The translations under genes were made by a program, and so were the position numbers. Below are positions 17,232 through 24,452 of a DNA stretch of 39,541 nucleotides, in pieces (within the stretch, counting starts at the first letter, position 1; each line of letters begins with the position of its first letter). The stretch is from the IMG/VR virus record IMGVR_UViG_3300042430_000389, positions 1-39,541 of that record; one strand, given 5' to 3'. The notes under the pieces were generated by a model. It did not search any database. It was given only the letters and a program-made list of their open reading frames with translations, and was not told where the DNA came from. The stretch is from a virus.

Positions 17232-17415
17232 GGCATAACTCCTGTACTTCATCATTAATTTCTATGTCTTTTACAATAGCATACTCAAAGTATTTATCTC
17301 CAAGTACACCCAATAGTTCATACACTTCATCAGCAGATAGGCTAAGCCTAACACCTTGAAGTGTCAGTAACCAACCGTCCTTACGGACTTCACTCTTGAC
17401 TAGGCTAGTCAACAT
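17221..17415 (-). CDS. Hypothetical small protein, 64 aa
   Basis: The ATG overlaps the stop of the glutamine amidotransferase by one base (TGATG), with GGAG five bases upstream. The first half is beta-rich (SLVKSEVRKDGWLLTLQGVRLSL), the second is helical and acidic (DEVYELLGVLGDKYFEYAIVKDIEIND). No family recognised. Coupling to the amidotransferase may mean a shared function, but this is inference. Confidence 0.65.
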   Translation of the reverse strand: MLTSLVKSEVRKDGWLLTLQGVRLSLSADEVYELLGVLGDKYFEYAIVKDIEINDEVQELCRES

Positions 17416-18239
17416 CAGTACTCCATTCCATTGTAGTTGTGCTGTGCCACAGTAGGATTGTAGCACAAGCAAGCGACAGCGTGATCGTAACATTCAAGGC
17501 AAGAGTTACATACGGTACATACACCGTCATACAATCCTTCCTCTGTAACCTTACTCATACATACATAGCAGGTATAGTCAACCTGTTCCAACTCTGCGGT
17601 TAGTGCCTTGCGATCTGCATCTAGTAGATCCTCGCTAGACCATAGTCCACGTGAGTAGTAACCCGAACCATAGAACGTGTACGAGTGCTTGTAACTAGAG
17701 TTAGACCACCATACATCCTTGTCCCAAGTACCGAGATCCTCGTTGACAATGTACACAGAGTCACGTAACTCTGGTGCAGTAGTTAGGATAGCCAACTTAC
17801 TACCGGCAGCCCAACCCTCTAACCTCTTGAATGAATCCTTGTCGTCAAGGGATTCGACACCTAGGTTAGGTAAGATATCCTCTGCGAAGATGCGCGTGTC
17901 AGAACGCCGGTCACCCTGCTTGGGGTGGATAGGTAGCATACCGTTGTGACCAAGGATAATGTCCTTGCGACCACCTACCCTGAATGGGTGAGCGTTCTCG
18001 ATAATGCTATCGCCGTGCGTTGTGATACGAGCGTGATACATAGCGACAAAGTCAGTACCTGCACCATCGAGTGCATTGAAGAACTTGTCGATAGTTTTCT
18101 GTGCATTCATACCACGACTCGTAATGATACGGTCGCCGTAGTGAATGGCATAGCCGAACCCGTCAGGGTTATTGTTGCTTGCATTAACAATGCTGTTGTA
18201 GTCAGGAACCTGACCCATTGTTACCATTAATAAACACAC
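17415..18239 (-). CDS. Class II glutamine amidotransferase (Ntn hydrolase), 274 aa
   Basis: A GTG start gives Cys at position 2, the catalytic nucleophile of class II amidotransferases after Met removal. Family motifs follow in order: NPDGFGYA (24-31), YHARITTHG (68-76), NAHPF (82-86), LGHNGML (96-102) and SDTR (113-116). The C-terminus adds a Cys-rich segment (CYVCMSK and VCTVCNSCLECYDH). The reaction is glutamine hydrolysis to release ammonia. The gene immediately upstream encodes an amidoligase-like protein, which suggests a joint amide-bond pathway. The leader carries palindrome site 1. Confidence 0.9.
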   Translation of the reverse strand: MCLLMVTMGQVPDYNSIVNASNNNPDGFGYAIHYGDRIITSRGMNAQKTIDKFFNALDGAGTDFVAMYHARITTHGDSIIENAHPFRVGGRKDIILGHNGMLPIHPKQGDRRSDTRIFAEDILPNLGVESLDDKDSFKRLEGWAAGSKLAILTTAPELRDSVYIVNEDLGTWDKDVWWSNSSYKHSYTFYGSGYYSRGLWSSEDLLDADRKALTAELEQVDYTCYVCMSKVTEEGLYDGVCTVCNSCLECYDHAVACLCYNPTVAQHNYNGMEY

Positions 18240-18261
18240 TTTAGTTTCTCCTTTTCCTAGC

Positions 18262-18277
18262 GATTATAATTATAATC
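18262..18277. repeat. Palindrome site 1 (variant)
   Basis: GATTATAATTATAATC is a perfect 16-base palindrome, a variant of the GATCATAATTATGATC core repeated at five other sites. It lies immediately before the Shine-Dalgarno of the amidotransferase gene and touches the stop codon of the amidoligase gene. It also contains TATAAT in both directions. Confidence 0.8.
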
Positions 18278-19502
18278 ACTCTGTGTTTTCGTCTGGTGTT
18301 ATTTGAAAGTCTGGCAAGTATTGTACCAGATCTGGATACTTACCCTGCTTGCGTACCCAAGAGGCAAACTCCTCAGGGCGTAGCATTACGCTAGCATTAG
18401 CACCGCTTCGTATGTCACGTGTGTACTCAACCGAAGCGTGGCAGAACTGAATGGCACTACGGACACGCTCTACCTTGAGCGAACCCTTGAACATTCTAAC
18501 CTCTACCGTGTGTGTATTCTGCAAGTTGATAGCGTTGTACCTATCGCCACCTCTAGCAGAACTATGACGGCGTTTGATAGTAAGCACGTTATCTATCTTA
18601 GCACCCTCATTAACGATACCATAGTGAGAGTTGCGACCGGCAATGTGGCGACATAGATTCTCATTACGGTTGATCAGATAGGTGAACGCGAGCAAGTGAG
18701 TACGGTCAGTAAACGCTCGCCTATCTATGTGTACGTGTAGCCCACAAGTACCGGCATTCCACGACCTGAACCCTGCATCACGCAACTTATCAAGCGTACC
18801 CCAATCAACGTGATCTTGGTAATACTCAAGCGTTGCAGGGTGAGTGACTATCTCGAAACCAAAGTTAAGTGATGAGTCCTCCTTGAGATACACAAAGTCA
18901 CCCCAAGAATCTGTCATAGTTTCAGCACCCGAAGAGTAGTCACCGTTAGCAGCCTCAACCTCTAACTCCATACCAAAATACAGATGCTTGTCAGATGATC
19001 CGTGAAATACTGGCGTTGGTTTGTAACTGTAGTTGTGTACAAACTCAGAGTCAGGGTGACACATCTCGTCGTGCCACTCATACTGATCACACATTGAACA
19101 CCAGTTAGCAACTCTAGAGATACAACCAGAGCAGTAACAACTATCACCACTACCCACATAGTTAACATCATCAGTAGTAAAGATGCCATCACATCTCTCA
19201 CACTCACGATAGTTCTCTGTGCAATCACCACAGTATTCACCAAGAGTGTAGATACCACTGATCTCATTATCTAAATGGTAGTCACCACAGTCAGCACACT
19301 TATTAGTGCAGGTGTCACAGGCATAGACATCTTCGTACGTGAACTCGCGAGTCGTGTAGTTCCAATGTCCTTTCTGTGTCGTGTAATGCCGTTCGTTATC
19401 GGCATCATAATCAAACGCATCACCACAAGAGTAACACGTTATCGCAACAACAACTTCGATAGACTCGTTGTTACTATCAACAGAGTCAATGATCTCAGTC
19501 AC
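18276..19502 (-). CDS. Amidoligase (COOH-NH2 ligase-like) with N-terminal zinc-finger array, 408 aa
   Basis: The N-terminal 150 residues contain multiple CxxC-type pairs (CYSCGD, CDTCTNKCADCGD, CGDCTENYRECERC, CYCSGC, WCSMCDQ), probably zinc-binding treble-clef units. The catalytic part shows FGMELEVE (176-183), KEDSSL (207-212), FEIVTHP (216-222), CGLHVHID (253-260), RYNAINL (321-327) and TVEVRMFKG (332-340), matching the putative amidoligase family as I know it. Such enzymes join amines to carboxyl groups with ATP. The GTG start has AGGAG at six bases, preceded by palindrome site 2. The partner amidotransferase is downstream. Confidence 0.85.
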   Translation of the reverse strand: MTEIIDSVDSNNESIEVVVAITCYSCGDAFDYDADNERHYTTQKGHWNYTTREFTYEDVYACDTCTNKCADCGDYHLDNEISGIYTLGEYCGDCTENYRECERCDGIFTTDDVNYVGSGDSCYCSGCISRVANWCSMCDQYEWHDEMCHPDSEFVHNYSYKPTPVFHGSSDKHLYFGMELEVEAANGDYSSGAETMTDSWGDFVYLKEDSSLNFGFEIVTHPATLEYYQDHVDWGTLDKLRDAGFRSWNAGTCGLHVHIDRRAFTDRTHLLAFTYLINRNENLCRHIAGRNSHYGIVNEGAKIDNVLTIKRRHSSARGGDRYNAINLQNTHTVEVRMFKGSLKVERVRSAIQFCHASVEYTRDIRSGANASVMLRPEEFASWVRKQGKYPDLVQYLPDFQITPDENTE

Positions 19503-19516
19503 CGTTATCTCCTAAC

Positions 19517-19534
19517 TGATCATAGTTATGATCA
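19517..19534. repeat. Palindrome site 2
   Basis: TGATCATAGTTATGATCA is an 18-base palindrome with one mismatch at the centre. It sits in the leader of the amidoligase gene, between promoter copy A and the Shine-Dalgarno. Confidence 0.85.
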
Positions 19535-19954: not shown

Positions 19955-20108
19955 ACTTCATCTCCTCTTCACACTTGTCCGAGCATACATAGACCTCGTG
20001 GTAGTGGTCAAGCATTACAGGTATATCGTGTTGCACAGACATAGGTTCTCTACACAAGAAACACCACGCTTCCACGAACCGATCACGATTTACTAATAGT
20101 GCAGTCAC
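19941..20108 (-). CDS. Small zinc-finger protein (treble-clef-like), 55 aa
   Basis: The peptide VTALLVNRDRFVEAW-CFLC (C16, C19) and later VYVCSDKC (C42, C46) gives two Cys pairs spaced like a small FCS/treble-clef zinc finger. The GTG start overlaps the upstream stop by four bases (GTGA) and has AAGGAG at six-base spacing, so initiation is well supported. Function unknown. Confidence 0.75.
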   Translation of the reverse strand: MTALLVNRDRFVEAWCFLCREPMSVQHDIPVMLDHYHEVYVCSDKCEEEMKYAYV

Positions 20109-20332
20109 TTGATACTCCTTAAGAAAGCAAACGATCCACCGTCATTAACCTTTTCCAGCATAGCACCCAGAGAATCCACTGCTGTACCGCGCAGGATTTT
20201 CTTTTGACTATCCTCTGGTATCGTGTTGAACAAAGCCACAAGTGGGTGACCTGACCGTAATTCATAGGTGCATTCGATCTCGAACTTAACCTTTACCTGA
20301 TCATAATTATGATCACTTGTTGGCTTAGCCAT
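20105..20332 (-). CDS. Hypothetical protein, 75 aa, with palindrome inside the gene
   Basis: The start at 20332 (ATG with GAGG about 10 bases upstream) overlaps the upstream membrane gene by eight bases. The first codons (MAKPTSDHNYDQVKV) translate the 18-base palindrome as SDHNYDQ. The remainder has a beta strand run (KVKFEIECTYELRSG) and a helical end. A later start is not available in frame. No family recognised. Confidence 0.65.
   Translation of the reverse strand: MAKPTSDHNYDQVKVKFEIECTYELRSGHPLVALFNTIPEDSQKKILRGTAVDSLGAMLEKVNDGGSFAFLRSIK
20298..20315. repeat. Palindrome site 3 (inside a coding region)
   Basis: TGATCATAATTATGATCA is a perfect 18-base palindrome. Unlike sites 1, 2 and 4 it lies within a gene (near its 5' end, codons 6-12), so it is not simply a leader element here. 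Confidence 0.85.
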
Positions 20333-20483
20333 TCTTACTTTTCCTCTCACTCTGTAATTCCCACGAAACTTGCAGGATCTGGCGCACATAGTCCTCGCAC
20401 TCACGATTCAGGCGCACCACACGCCACACTAGACCCACGATTACCATTAGCAACAGTAGATCGAACCCGTTAATTGTCTGCAT
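20325..20483 (-). CDS. Small membrane protein with single N-terminal span, 52 aa
   Basis: The ATG overlaps the stop of the upstream gene (TAATG) and has GAGGAG at about five bases. One hydrophobic span (LLLLMVIVGLVWRVV, residues about 9-23) is followed by a charged cytoplasmic tail with several Arg/Glu and a C-terminal helix. Function unknown. The gene is too short for many gene finders. Confidence 0.72.
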   Translation of the reverse strand: MQTINGFDLLLLMVIVGLVWRVVRLNRECEDYVRQILQVSWELQSERKSKNG

Positions 20484-20760: not shown

Positions 20761-20778
20761 TGATCATAATTATGATCG
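20761..20778. repeat. Palindrome site 4
   Basis: TGATCATAATTATGATCG carries the perfect core GATCATAATTATGATC. It is 15 bases upstream of the ATG at 20746, with the Shine-Dalgarno AAAGG between them. A second inverted repeat, GGTGATCACC, lies just on the promoter side. Confidence 0.85.
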
Positions 20779-20827: not shown

Positions 20828-20857
20828 ATCTTACCACACAGGTACATAGTCTGTCAA
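20828..20857 (-). promoter_or_regulatory. Leftward promoter copy B (TTGACA-18-TAAGAT)
   Basis: TTGACA (20852-20857) and TAAGAT (20828-20833) are 18 bases apart on the minus strand. The surrounding sequence repeats promoter copy A at 19574-19603. The start is about 80 bases upstream of the first leftward ATG (20746), and palindrome site 4 lies in its leader. It probably starts the early operon. Confidence 0.75.
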
Positions 20858-21069
20858 GGATAAAATGCACCTATTTTTCCTGCACCTTTTACAGCACCTG
20901 CCCGTACCGTACACAGCACCTCTATGCGCACGCAGGCGCACCCCTGCGCTCGCACTCGCCTATGTGTATGCGTGTGTATGTGTATGCATACGGGTGTGGG
21001 TGTGCCTATGTATGGGTGTGGGTGTACCGGTGGCTACGGGTGGGTGTTGCCTAAGTGCAACTAGGTTGC

Positions 21070-21087
21070 TGATCATAATTATGATCA
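21070..21087. repeat. Palindrome site 5
   Basis: TGATCATAATTATGATCA, perfect 18-base palindrome in the intergenic control region, immediately next to the GTTGC inverted-repeat array. Confidence 0.88.
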
Positions 21088-21097
21088 CTTAGTGATC

Positions 21098-21113
21098 GTT
21101 GCTAATTGGTAAC
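21098..21113. repeat. GTTGC inverted repeat R1
   Basis: GTTGC-TAATTG-GTAAC. The first copy of the GTTGC-N6-GYAAC family; it is followed by GCCTAGC, so the wider unit is about 23 bases (to 21120). Confidence 0.75.
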
Positions 21114-21146
21114 GCCTAGCCTTACGCCTAGCCCTAGCCCGTAGGC

Positions 21147-21162
21147 GTTGCGTATTGGTAAC
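21147..21162. repeat. GTTGC inverted repeat R2
   Basis: GTTGC-GTATTG-GTAAC, 49 bases after R1, followed by GGGTAGC. Confidence 0.75.
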
Positions 21163-21191
21163 GGGTAGCGCGTATCTAATCGGGTGATCTT

Positions 21192-21207
21192 GTTGCTAAT
21201 GGGTAAC
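21192..21207. repeat. GTTGC inverted repeat R3
   Basis: GTTGC-TAATGG-GTAAC, 45 bases after R2. It is followed directly by GGTTACGCTTAGC, which makes a nested GTAAC-G-GTTAC inverted repeat. Confidence 0.75.
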
Positions 21208-21237
21208 GGTTACGCTTAGCGCGTAAGTCTGGCGCGT

Positions 21238-21253
21238 GTTGCGTATCTGTAAC
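21238..21253. repeat. GTTGC inverted repeat R4
   Basis: GTTGC-GTATCT-GTAAC, 46 bases after R3, followed by GCTTAGC. Confidence 0.75.
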
Positions 21254-21263
21254 GCTTAGCTTT

Positions 21264-21279
21264 GTTGCGTATCTGCATC
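21264..21279. repeat. GTTGC inverted repeat R5 (degenerate)
   Basis: GTTGC-GTATCT-GCATC, 26 bases after R4. The left arm and the N6 match the other copies; the right arm has one change (GCATC for GCAAC). Confidence 0.5.
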
Positions 21280-21287
21280 AAGTTGCC

Positions 21288-21305
21288 TGATCATAATTAT
21301 GATCA
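21288..21305. repeat. Palindrome site 6
   Basis: TGATCATAATTATGATCA, perfect 18-base palindrome, just downstream of R5 and next to the R6 repeat. Confidence 0.88.
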
Positions 21306-21314
21306 CTAGGAATT

Positions 21315-21330
21315 GTTGCGATCTTGCAAC
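21315..21330. repeat. GTTGC inverted repeat R6
   Basis: GTTGC-GATCTT-GCAAC, a perfect 5-base inverted repeat with six-base spacer, 10 bases after palindrome site 6. Confidence 0.75.
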
Positions 21331-21353
21331 GGATTCAAAGAAAGCCCAGGCGG

Positions 21354-21371
21354 TAGTTGAACTTTCAACTA
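21354..21371. repeat. Inverted repeat TAGTTGAA-CT-TTCAACTA
   Basis: Perfect 8-base arms around two bases. It is enclosed by a wider AGCCC ... GGGCT pair (about 21343-21379). It lies between the leftward and rightward units; a hairpin or operator is plausible. Confidence 0.5.
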
Positions 21372-21543
21372 ATTGGGCTGGCGTTGCCGGTTTCTAGGGG
21401 TAAATGCGGCGGATTCTCGACACGCCCGAAAACCCTTGCAAATAAAGGGAAAAAAAAAGTTTTCCCAAATGTTGCCGTTTTCTCGTTTTTTGTGGTACTT
21501 TTGGTACATCAAGCCAAACGGGCTTGGTAGAAAAGGAAAAAAA

Positions 21544-22071
21544 ATGAGTACCAAAGAAAAGGAAAAGGTAGGCGCGAAAGTTGCGCTAGTCGGCGAGATC
21601 AAAAAGATCGTTGCCAAAGAGCAACAAACCGTTGAATACATTGCAGGTATTCTCAAGGGTTTAGTTGATGCAGGACACTCTCACCGTTCAATCGTTGCTG
21701 AATGGTCAAAGCAGGCAGGGCGCAAGATCAGCGTTGCCACTATCTCGCATCACGTTGCAATCGCTGACTCAAAGAGTGGCGCAAATGCTCAAGCCCTGCT
21801 GAAAGAGTTGCAAGGCAACAAGATCACCGTTGAGCAGGTTCGCACCTTGACCCCTGCAAAGGCAAAGGAACTCGAGTTAATGTCCGCACCTGTCCGCAAG
21901 GTTCGCACGCCTAAGCCAAAGGCAAAGGCAACCAACGCACCTGCACCTGCTGAGCAGATCAACGCAATCAACAAGGCAATCCAGACAGGTAAGACATTGA
22001 GCGCACAAGATCGCGCCAATGCAATCAAGGCAACTCAAGCCCTGCTTGAAATGCTAATCGCTACAAGTTAG
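21544..22071 (+). CDS. DNA-binding regulator or ParB-like protein, 175 aa
   Basis: The ATG follows AGGA and is the first Met after a 5' leader with a hairpin. Residues about 1-35 are Lys/Glu helical. The central part (GHSHRSIVAEWSKQAGRKISVATISHHVAIADS) reads as a helix-turn-helix. Next comes a stretch resembling the ParB-type linker (ALLKELQGNKITVEQVRTLTPAKAKELE), then a Pro/Ala/Lys linker and a C-terminal helix. It sits alone between the two arms, flanked on both sides and within by GTTGC inverted repeats, and is followed by a terminator. It is the best candidate to bind one of the two repeat families. Confidence 0.7.
   Translation: MSTKEKEKVGAKVALVGEIKKIVAKEQQTVEYIAGILKGLVDAGHSHRSIVAEWSKQAGRKISVATISHHVAIADSKSGANAQALLKELQGNKITVEQVRTLTPAKAKELELMSAPVRKVRTPKPKAKATNAPAPAEQINAINKAIQTGKTLSAQDRANAIKATQALLEMLIATS
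21610..21625. repeat. GTTGC inverted repeat R7 (inside the regulator gene)
   Basis: GTTGC-CAAAGA-GCAAC, a perfect copy inside the 5' part of the helix-turn-helix gene, 66 bases after its start codon. Confidence 0.65.
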
Positions 22072-22085
22072 CAACACAAGGAAAG

Positions 22086-22108
22086 CCCCCGCGAAAGCGG
22101 GGGTTTTT
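22086..22108 (+). terminator. Rho-independent terminator after the regulator gene
   Basis: A perfect 7-base stem (CCCCCGC / GCGGGGG) with a GAAA loop is followed by TTTTT. It ends the single-gene transcript before the late operon. Confidence 0.92.
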
Positions 22109-22237
22109 CTATGCCCAAAAATAATGCAGCACCCAAAGCTTTGATGCGGATAAACAACGAGCAGACAGTCAAGCATTAACATTCATTCGTTGTTATTAAA
22201 CATCACCCCCCACCCCACCCCCGTAGGGGGGGTATGT

Positions 22238-22253
22238 GTTGCGATAACGCAAC
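22238..22253. repeat. GTTGC inverted repeat R8
   Basis: GTTGC-GATAAC-GCAAC, a perfect copy downstream of the regulator gene. Confidence 0.75.
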
Positions 22254-22265
22254 GAGCTGCGAGGT

Positions 22266-22281
22266 GTTGCTGAAAAGCAAC
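22266..22281. repeat. GTTGC inverted repeat R9
   Basis: GTTGC-TGAAAA-GCAAC, a perfect copy 28 bases after R8. Confidence 0.75.
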
Positions 22282-22468
22282 CTATGACCCCCCAGTTATT
22301 AAGGGCGGAGGAATAGTATATACATTACTCTCACATATTATTTTCTGCTGTGTTTCCGTATGGTTATTGAGTTTTCTTAATGTGACGTAAATTACTTTAT
22401 AAATTTTTGGTAACAAATCGTTACAGGGTCTTTATAATGGGGTTAGTATATATGTAAGGTTATTTTAC

Positions 22469-22516
22469 GCAAACCCTGTCGGTTTGCTAGTATATAATAC
22501 ACCGCTTGTTGCGGTG
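22469..22516 (+). promoter_or_regulatory. Candidate late promoter flanked by two inverted repeats
   Basis: TATAAT at 22493-22498 lies between GCAAACC-CTGTC-GGTTTGC (22469-22487) and CACCGC-TTGTT-GCGGTG (22500-22516). No good -35 is seen at the normal distance, so it may need an activator or the phage sigma-like factor. It precedes the terminase gene. Confidence 0.5.
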
Positions 22517-22559
22517 TTGTATGTGTGTTGTATTTGGATGTTGTTTAGGATGTGTTTCG

Positions 22560-24452
22560 GTGGCTGCTAGGACAGGTGCATTGCACCATACGGTAATTAA
22601 GCAGAATGAGGACCAAGCGAAATTTCTGGCTTCTGTAGCGTCAGGCGTATCAGAACACGCTGCGCTGGGTATAGTAGGTCGTAAACCTGCTGCCTTAAAG
22701 ACGTGGCTCCGGGACCCTAAGTTCGCTATGAAACTTGAGGATGCGCGGGGCGAGTCTAACGCCCTTATGAGCGAGACCCTGGTTAATGGCAAAAAGATTG
22801 ACTTTGCCACCTTCTCCAAGGAGTTCCTAGGATCTGAGGTATTCCCTCATCACCAGTCTTGGATTGATGTTTTAGAGGGGCAAGCCCCATCTTGGCTCCA
22901 CCCATCTATGACCTTTGAACCTAGCAATCGCCGCCGTATGTTAATCAACGTACCGCCCGAGCATGCTAAGTCTACGGTTCTAACGGTTGGCTACGCTACC
23001 TACCGTATTGCAATGGATCCCAACATCCGCATTGTTATCGTATCCCAAACCCAGACCCGTGCTAAGGAATTCTTGTATTCCATTAAACAACGTCTGACAG
23101 AAGACAACTGGGCCAAACTCCAAGGTGTCTATGGACCAGCCGGTGGCTGGAAGGAAACAGCGGATCAATGGACTGCCGACCGTATCTACTTGGAACGTTC
23201 ATCTGGCGAGAAGGACCCAACCGTCCAAGCCATTGGTATGGGGCAACAGATTTACGGTACTCGCGCAGACCTGATTATTTTGGACGACGTGGTCACTACT
23301 ACCAACGCCCACGAATGGGAGAAGCAACTCAACTGGTTGCAAAAGATGGTTATTACCCGTGTCGGAGCAACCGGTATGCTCATTATTGCAGGGACTCGAG
23401 TCTCTTCGGTAGACCTCTATAAAGAGATCCGCAACCCAGATAACTGGTCTGGAGACAAATCCCCCTTTACTTATTTGGCTATGCCAGCAGTTCTAGAGTT
23501 CGCTGATAAAAAGGAAAACTGGAAGACGCTCTGGCCCATCTCCGACCGTGTTTGGGATGGTGCAGATCCAGATAACGAAGATGACTCAGAACTTTTAGTA
23601 CAGGACGAAAATGGATACTACCCTAAATGGGATGGAAAACGCCTCTTCCAACGACGCAGTGAGGTTAACCCATCTACATGGGCTCTCGTATACCAACAGC
23701 AAGATGTCGAAGAAGACGCGATCTTTCCCCCTGCGCTTGTTAACTCCTGCGTTAACCGCATGCGCAAGCCTGGTCCTCTCAACATGGGCGCGCCTGGACA
23801 TCCATCGGGAGGACAATGGGTAACCATTCTGGGCTTTGACCCTGCTATGTCAGGGCATGCTGCTATGGTTGCTTATGCTGTAGAGCGTGAGTCCGGAGAG
23901 CGTATGGTTCTGGATGTGTATAACATGGCAGATCCAACCCCCCAAAAGATCAGAGCACTCATGGAAGACTGGGTGCTTAAGTTTAGACCTATTGAATTAC
24001 GCGTTGAAATCAACGCACACCAGAAAGCCTATTCCCTAGACGAGGATCTGCGGATGTGGATGGCTAATCGCGGTGTACAGATGAGAGAACACTTTACTGG
24101 TAAGAATAAGTGGGATGTTAGTTTCGGTGTGGCTTCCATGTCGAATCTCTTTGGTGCAATGCGCGATGGCAAATTCATTGGGGGTAATCTAATTACCCTA
24201 CCGGATGCAAGTAACGAGCATATCAAGGCTCTTGTAAACCAGTTAATTACCTGGAAACCAGATACCAAGAACAAGACTGACGTAGTCATGGCTCTTTGGT
24301 TCTGTGAGATTCGGGCTAAGGAACTAGTTCAAAGCAGTATGAACCGAGTTCACCACATGAACTCAAGGTATGCAACTAGAAGAAACATGTCCCAGCGAGC
24401 AGTTATTGATTTAGATGAACTTGCTGCAGATCAACAAGTAATTTATATTTAG
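22560..24452 (+). CDS. terL: Terminase large subunit with N-terminal helix-turn-helix-like region, 630 aa
   Basis: A GTG start at 22560 has AGGA nine bases upstream; the in-frame ATG at 22506 lies inside the upstream hairpin and gives a Cys-rich unlikely leader. Walker A reads NVPPEHAKST (about 131-139) and Walker B LIILDD. The nuclease part has GFDPAMSG (D about 427), RVEINAHQ and KTDVVMALW. Residues about 15-60 (EDQAKFLASVASGVSEHAALGIVGRKPAALKTWLRDPKF) resemble small-terminase DNA-binding helices. No separate small terminase is seen, so the two activities may be fused. Confidence 0.93.
   Translation: MAARTGALHHTVIKQNEDQAKFLASVASGVSEHAALGIVGRKPAALKTWLRDPKFAMKLEDARGESNALMSETLVNGKKIDFATFSKEFLGSEVFPHHQSWIDVLEGQAPSWLHPSMTFEPSNRRRMLINVPPEHAKSTVLTVGYATYRIAMDPNIRIVIVSQTQTRAKEFLYSIKQRLTEDNWAKLQGVYGPAGGWKETADQWTADRIYLERSSGEKDPTVQAIGMGQQIYGTRADLIILDDVVTTTNAHEWEKQLNWLQKMVITRVGATGMLIIAGTRVSSVDLYKEIRNPDNWSGDKSPFTYLAMPAVLEFADKKENWKTLWPISDRVWDGADPDNEDDSELLVQDENGYYPKWDGKRLFQRRSEVNPSTWALVYQQQDVEEDAIFPPALVNSCVNRMRKPGPLNMGAPGHPSGGQWVTILGFDPAMSGHAAMVAYAVERESGERMVLDVYNMADPTPQKIRALMEDWVLKFRPIELRVEINAHQKAYSLDEDLRMWMANRGVQMREHFTGKNKWDVSFGVASMSNLFGAMRDGKFIGGNLITLPDASNEHIKALVNQLITWKPDTKNKTDVVMALWFCEIRAKELVQSSMNRVHHMNSRYATRRNMSQRAVIDLDELAADQQVIYI

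Follow-up and report, generated by a model that had tools for sequence, protein, structure and literature searches.

The window, by which we mean the whole stretch of DNA analysed, is a viral record of 39,541 bases from IMG/VR, in which genes for the large terminase (TerL), a portal, a major head protein, a split primase, a DnaB-like helicase, a RusA-like resolvase, an exonuclease, WhiB, a sigma factor and an amidoligase were called with PHROGs. Replication and regulatory genes make up a leftward arm and packaging and structural genes a rightward arm, and between the two lie a control region and a gene for a 175-aa helix-turn-helix regulator (the slot gene; Table 1). By TerL, the closest named records are Planktophila phages LanE43-AprE7 and F5 (53.6% identity), described in PMC10202952 as freshwater actinophages with Ca. 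Planktophila as host. Like the window, these phages measure about 39 kb and carry WhiB and sigma factor genes; unlike it, LanE43-AprE7 has, in the 11 kb of its TerL region, neither the GTTGC array described below nor a dispersed palindrome family of at least four copies. The integrase models PF00589 and PF00239 each matched 0 of 10 records (39-40.6 kb), which argues against an integrating temperate phage, and a TerL search of a collection of genome contigs gave no match. An alternating GT-rich stretch occupies 20940-21045, of which relatives keep the type and not the length. The GATase-like and amidoligase-like genes adjoin (17415-19502), with a candidate operator 15-22 nt ahead of each start; both are also absent from the two records without slot gene that were tested for gene content.

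Table 1. Sites and other features of the window, with palindrome and repeat families of related loci
Feature	Position or locus	Strand	Remarks
Candidate operator GATTATAATTATAATC, two mismatches	18262-18277		22 nt before GATase-like gene start (18239)
Candidate operator GATCATAGTTATGATC	19518-19533		15 nt before amidoligase-like gene start (19502)
Candidate operator	20299-20314		5' part of leftward gene 20105-20404
Candidate operator	20762-20777		15 nt before leftward start 20746; predicted start of leftward promoter lies about 45-60 nt upstream
Predicted leftward early promoter TTGACA-18-TAAGAT	20828-20857	-	conserved
GTTGC-N6-GCAAC site GTTGCCTAAGTGCAAC	21046-21061		exact; just left of operator 21070-21087
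Candidate operator TGATCATAATTATGATCA, 18 bp	21070-21087		left bracket of GTTGC array
GTTGC-N6-GTAAC array site	21098-21113	+	asymmetric class; TAGC tail
GTTGC-N6-GTAAC array site	21147-21162	+	TAGC tail; same in 6/6 clade members
GTTGC-N6-GTAAC array site	21192-21207	+	TAGC displaced
GTTGC-N6-GTAAC array site	21238-21253	+	TAGC tail
Degenerate array site GTTGCGTATCTGCATC	21264-21279	+
Candidate operator TGATCATAATTATGATCA, 18 bp	21288-21305		right bracket of GTTGC array
GTTGC-N6-GCAAC site	21315-21330		just right of operator 21288-21305
Slot gene, 175-aa helix-turn-helix regulator	21544-22071	+
GTTGC-N6-GCAAC match within slot gene	21610-21625		coding sequence
Strong GC stem-loop directly after slot gene	22086-22103		then TTTTTCT on +; terminator-like on -
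Leader stem-loop GTTGCG-ATAA-CGCAAC	22238-22253		6-bp stem, 4-base loop
Leader stem-loop GTTGCT-GAAA-AGCAAC	22266-22281		6-bp stem, 4-base loop
Promoter-like GTAACA-17-TATAAT	22410-22438	+	upstream of terminase gene
Palindrome family GATTATAATTATAATC	L132, L134
Palindrome family GATTGTATTTACAATC	L133
Palindrome family GTATCC-N4-GGATAC	L167, L033
Palindrome family CTATACTTTAGTATAG-like	L085
Palindrome family ACTTTAGTTAAAGT	L164		tandem pairs
Palindrome family CTAACAGTACTGTTAG	L137, L138
Palindrome family CTGACRGTACYGTCAG	L145, L173, L139
Palindrome family CTAACGGTAACGTTAG	L140
ACACCAGYAAT-like repeat	L137, L138, L136, L139, L140, L145, L173		between two inner operators

The GTTGC sites: array, coding copy and leader hairpins

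Nine exact GTTGC-N6-GYAAC sites and one degenerate site (21264) were found, all inside 21046-22281; the remainder of the window held no exact match, and a reversed-pattern control gave 0. Allowing up to one mismatch, 28 strand-matches were counted in the window against 5.7 +/- 2.9 in shuffled sequence, none of 100 shuffles reaching 28, and in a relative (G001, a record of 40,282 bases) 10 of 10 forward matches fell within the corresponding 1.24-kb region. The earlier note, which had described a clustered family of nine sites around a lone gene, was thus right about the clustering and about each site that it listed, with its position and six-base spacer; its count omitted the exact site at 21046, and the ten sites are not a homogeneous family, as they comprise a seven-site array, one coding copy and two leader hairpins. 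Four direct copies in one orientation, 45-49 bp apart (spacings of 49, 45 and 46, as had been reported), lie in a non-coding stretch, as do direct repeats of the iteron type, and the TAGC tail that all four had been said to share is in register in three of them and displaced in the copy at 21192.

The array recurs site for site in L007, L009/L131, L010/L132, L011/L134 and L133, the last having a diverged slot gene. Six distinct clade members were compared, L009 being set aside for its near identity with L131. Between 21046 and 21330, 67 of the 70 columns in half-sites were invariant among them; the counts were 26 of 42 for spacers, 27 of 48 for operators and 81 of 141 for the rest of that stretch, and only 4 of 2000 shifted site sets were equally conserved. 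A non-random, strongly conserved array in a control region between divergent arms is therefore supported. The copy at 21610 is not exact in two of the six clade members, being absent in L133 and carrying one mismatch in L134, and on this comparison is probably not functional. A scan for tandem arrays gave 14 scattered matches in the genome contig collection (one, L235, was examined further) and 11 stretches in viral contigs, seven of them in the phage group of the window and the other four unrelated by tblastn; an early paired-motif scan, which was no census, had many apparently unrelated contigs among the matches listed.

The two copies nearest the terminase gene differ in kind. In relatives, the presumed counterpart of the 22238 copy keeps the stem with an altered sequence; in other lineages a counterpart hairpin is found at the equivalent position, next to that same G-rich flank, with a stem of GTTGCC, GTCACC, GGCATC, GTCGGC or GTCGTC and a loop of 3 to 5 bases. 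Among the 10 of 15 aligned sequences that have 4-base loops, all 60 cells pair and five of the six pairs are altered on both sides. Symmetric change alone does not separate a hairpin from the site of a dimer; a hairpin is favoured for the counterpart because loop length varies and because L137 and L138 share an operator type and differ in the stem. By this alignment evidence the 22238 and 22266 copies belong to a predicted, conserved leader hairpin element beside the terminase gene. That all GTTGC copies might act as hairpins of RNA or of a single strand (stems of 5-6 bp, loops of 4-6 bases), for example as leader structures, draws on these 6-bp stems with their A-rich loops and on the covarying counterpart; as an account of the array it is very improbable, given that the array half-sites are conserved in sequence, beyond pairing, and that a GTTAC-N6-GCAAC copy in L167 and L033 would leave an A-C mismatch in the rightward RNA. 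A scan with Rfam returned sub-threshold matches only. Further conserved hairpins were noted in the terminase leader at 22470-22520, with stems GCAAACC/GGTTTGC (GCGAACC/GGTTCGC in relatives) and CACCGC/GCGGTG.

The slot protein and a second, dispersed palindrome

In relatives the slot gene occupies the same locus and encodes about 174-203 aa; it runs rightward in the clade of the window and leftward in other lineages. Homology of the slot proteins across lineages was established by profile comparison only for W with L133 and for B with C, so that genes of different lineages are called the 'same slot gene' by their position, size and layout. For the 175-aa protein nothing reliable was found in Pfam, PHROGs, NCBIfam or PDB sequences (neither Pfam nor NCBIfam matched it to the ParB family), a phage collection gave no match, and an alignment-based rescan of viral contigs gave no new relatives. 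Its counterpart in L140 clears the Pfam cut-off for the LacI helix-turn-helix (29.3 against 27 bits). Residues 8-111 of an AlphaFold model (pLDDT 77.5 from the alignment with L133 added, which was used; 67 without L133) gave ParB as the top structural alignment with a Z of 7.5, at which chance matches occur, and the DNA-binding domains of Spo0J, Noc and KorB at Z 5.6-7.1. ParB-family matches ranged from Z 7.5 to 4.2, below the reliable range, the second rank was taken by an unrelated helical fold, Raf1 (Z 7.3), and Foldseek E-values exceeded 0.8. The model thus weakly suggests a DNA-binding domain of the ParB/KorB type. As the protein begins where ParB residues from about 98-125 onwards align, with few residues preceding, it would have no CTPase (CTP-binding clamp) domain; its C-terminal helices may serve in dimerisation. 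The earlier view of the lone gene as encoding a DNA-binding regulator is borne out to this extent.

The gene lies directly upstream of TerL, which raises the reading that it encodes a small subunit of the terminase and that packaging takes place at the sites by the large terminase gene. Two small terminases did appear in an early, poor Foldseek list, and the contigs of relatives often end 20-500 nt upstream of TerL (over 80 TerL loci, 0.5-0.6 ends per kb at risk, against 0.1-0.2 beyond 1.5 kb), a cluster that suggests either hypervariability or genome ends. These ends are scattered with no single point, and for that reason the cluster was not put down to one physical genome end upstream of TerL. 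With the slot gene of other lineages reversed in strand and part of the early arm, with 23 of 41 loci keeping TerL and no slot gene, and with a helix-turn-helix-like segment of its own already at the N-terminus of TerL (by eye), the small-terminase reading is hardly credible. This segment, at the start of TerL (22560-22800), resembles that of small terminases, and apart from it no gene for a small terminase was recognised.

The control region also holds sites of a second family. A palindrome of 16-18 bp, GATCATAATTATGATC, occurs six times between 18262 and 21304 (0.2 expected at up to three mismatches): exactly at 20299, 20762, 21071 and 21289, with one mismatch at 19518 and with two at 18262, where it reads as another operator type (GATT). 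The copies at 21071 and 21289 bracket five of the GTTGC sites. Across 14 loci, 33 of 93 such palindromes sit 8-25 nt ahead of a leftward gene start (starts taken from a simple script) compared with 3.8 at random and a maximum of 11 in 1000 simulations, counts that are not independent since several of the loci are close relatives. A de novo search for inverted repeats recovered one dispersed family in each relative, differing in sequence between lineages (Table 1), and none in shuffled sequences.

Presence of the palindrome follows that of the slot gene. Among 41 loci, namely all 36 of the 80 TerL loci that have at least 2.5 kb upstream together with L131, L007, the window, L033 and L085 (where TerL lies outside the locus and distances were counted from the locus end), 18 carry a slot gene and all 18 a palindrome family of 3 to 11 copies in the stretch covered, which in the three-copy locus measures only 1.86 kb. 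Absence of the gene was defined as no match to models built from these same slot proteins; by that definition none of the 23 remaining loci has a family of at least four copies, and four have three weak copies. This co-occurrence is not phylogenetically independent, as in all 23 gene-less loci TerL is only 65-70% identical to that of the window.

The sequence of the palindrome also changes with that of the protein. In L133 the slot protein is 32% identical to that of the window and five of five palindromes are altered in both half-sites, to GATTGTATTTACAATC, while the GTTGC sites remain; of the other 21 window proteins found there, 19 are 84-98% identical, the exonuclease 65% and the product of 20105-20404 62%. 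L132 and L134 have a Q-type recognition helix and a palindrome altered in nearly all copies, and again the GTTGC half-sites stay. One mosaic operator in L134 and the GATT reading at 18262 count against the link. In a manual alignment, recognition-helix residues 17, 18 and 22 (LacI-style numbering) read V/I-A-H where the palindromes have GATC and Q-S/A/T-Q where they have GATT; CTAAC goes with x-M-R, CTGAC with x-K-R. In general, G favours histidine or lysine and A favours glutamine. Separately, a 16-mer, TGTTTCACGTGAAACC, which we take to be one base off the canonical bacterial parS, adjoins the rightmost operator in four contigs (L137:4516, L144:8, L145:4528 and L173:3266); it is not special to these, being present in at least 120 stretches of the viral collection.

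These co-changes bear on the central proposal of the earlier note, that the 175-aa product binds GTTGC-N6-GYAAC, either for autoregulation or in an origin or partition complex, which would leave the other palindromes to another protein. The GTTGC sites do flank and overlap the gene, and their 16-bp length is within the range of the 13-16 bp inverted repeats bound by ParB-type proteins. Against this, the half-sites are unaltered when the protein changes, and GTTGC arrays accompany slot proteins that cannot be aligned and are absent from slot lineages B, C and D, which makes the proposal improbable. An autoregulated switch still fits the protein, through the GATCATAATTATGATC palindrome and not through GTTGC. 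A partition origin has no support: PF13614, the sole ParA model used, matched 0 of 10 records (39-40.6 kb) and 14 of 14 controls, so a ParA-type ATPase appears to be absent.

Proposed early-gene repression and a candidate origin

The reading that we prefer, with a probability of about 0.58 on the present comparisons, is that two families of sites overlap in the control region, the GATCATAATTATGATC palindromes being operators of a dimeric 175-aa repressor and the GTTGC array belonging to another factor, most likely as the repeats of an origin. The sites, their placement and their co-divergence with the protein are observed; from these we infer binding, dimerisation and repression. A dimer of the protein would occupy the six GATCATAATTATGATC sites, ahead of leftward early genes, past the leftward promoter and twice within the control region, and would shut off leftward replication and host-takeover genes by blocking either elongation or initiation, and it would control its own gene as well. 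The array at 21046-21330 would be bound by a phage or host factor common to several lineages and would form the repeat array of a replication origin, whose use the bracketing operators could conceivably control.

Nine of the 18 slot loci have GTTGC arrays of at least four sites, and the types of slot protein among them do not align with one another (for example L167, L033 and L085); such arrays are missing from other lineages that do have slot proteins (the L137, L145 and L164 types). As the arrays accompany unalignable types, the slot protein is probably not what binds them. None of the 36 window proteins tracks presence or absence of the array, which is what one would expect of a host factor, or of a conserved phage protein that also occurs elsewhere. 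The TerL N-terminus was considered as the binder and rejected: that of the window is closer, by eye, to that of L137, which has no GTTGC sites, than to that of L167, which has them.

Instead of being an origin, the array could recruit a transcription factor, from host or phage, by which the divergent early promoters are activated. Each bracketing operator has a GTTGC site on both sides at a start-to-start distance of about 25 bp, giving symmetric site-operator-site modules (21046/21071/21098 and 21264/21289/21315); the bracketing operators contain -10-like sequence, with a leftward promoter-like match whose -10 lies inside operator 21071, and the lack of a tracking window protein is what a host factor would give. 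A consensus scan, however, gave no promoter-like match for the array sites between the operators themselves, and the 14 matches in genome contigs follow no host pattern, so that activation as the sole role of the array seems unlikely.

Within the preferred two-family reading, the chances that the array is an origin are about even. Lineages B and C, which have no GTTGC arrays, carry in the same operator-bracketed place an array of an 11-bp repeat, found by a repeat finder in seven of eight loci (not in L148), ACACCAGYAAT-like, with a 22-bp period in L139 and situated about 1.35-1.5 kb upstream of TerL. A repeat array bracketed by operators suggests an origin. The cumulative GC-skew minimum falls at 20-21 kb; it agrees with an origin but does not distinguish one from transcription, because it coincides with the divergence of transcription, which by itself might produce it. 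No replication initiator or repA-like gene was recognised among the proteins scanned with PHROGs, and DnaA boxes were not in excess (9 against 12 expected).

Relation to known repressor systems

Cluster A mycobacteriophages offer a close likeness. Their stoperators lie in short gaps between genes, where the repressor halts elongation (PMC9283540, PMC6550527). As these papers describe it, a small phage regulator of the L5 gp71 type acts there through numerous sites spread over the short gaps within early operons, as proposed here, and site consensus and repressor diverge together between phages, as they do among our loci. Longer slot-lineage loci hold 5-14 copies each, which agrees with many dispersed early-region sites of the stoperator type. 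In cluster A the site is a 13-mer without symmetry that follows the direction of transcription and, in the same accounts, is bound by a monomer, whereas the sites of the window are perfect or near-perfect palindromes without orientation. No sequence relationship of the 175-aa protein to the cluster A repressor was seen in Pfam, PHROGs or NCBIfam.

KorB of plasmid RK2 has palindromic sites. Its operators (OB) are dispersed, it has a ParB-type DNA-binding domain, weakly suggested for the phage protein too, and it acts as a repressor beyond partition; KorB uses a CTP-dependent clamp for long-range action, according to PMC11790492, whereas the phage protein starts at the putative DNA-binding domain, and no ParA partner was found for it with PF13614. 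Repeat arrays in actinophages without integrase are also known from the RedRock and Miko prophages, which are extrachromosomal and have parABS and RepA/RNA origins; in RedRock parS, as given in PMC7157519, an 8-bp motif stands next to parAB in eight direct copies, whereas the array of the window has the form GTTGC-N6-GYAAC and is found with neither parA nor a repA-like gene. The system would be a variant of dispersed-operator repressor systems. No description of such a system in these phages was recognised in text searches of an open-access library that lacks subscription journals.

Our broadest suggestion, possible if somewhat doubtful, is that phages of the present group, which belongs to a wider family infecting the abundant freshwater Nanopelagicales, carry a swappable specificity cassette: a stoperator-like repressor of the ParB type without CTPase, acting on dispersed palindromes of at least seven sequence types, with operators bracketing a lineage-specific origin array, so that one protein would control early transcription and replication and define immunity groups. 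If this is true, the H/GATC, Q/GATT, M/CTAAC and K/CTGAC combinations would constitute a natural specificity series from one phage group, a short candidate origin segment would be on offer, and repressor-operator co-evolution and immunity grouping would become directly testable in relatives of phages of dominant freshwater bacteria. Phages without integrase may then still carry repressor-type immunity.
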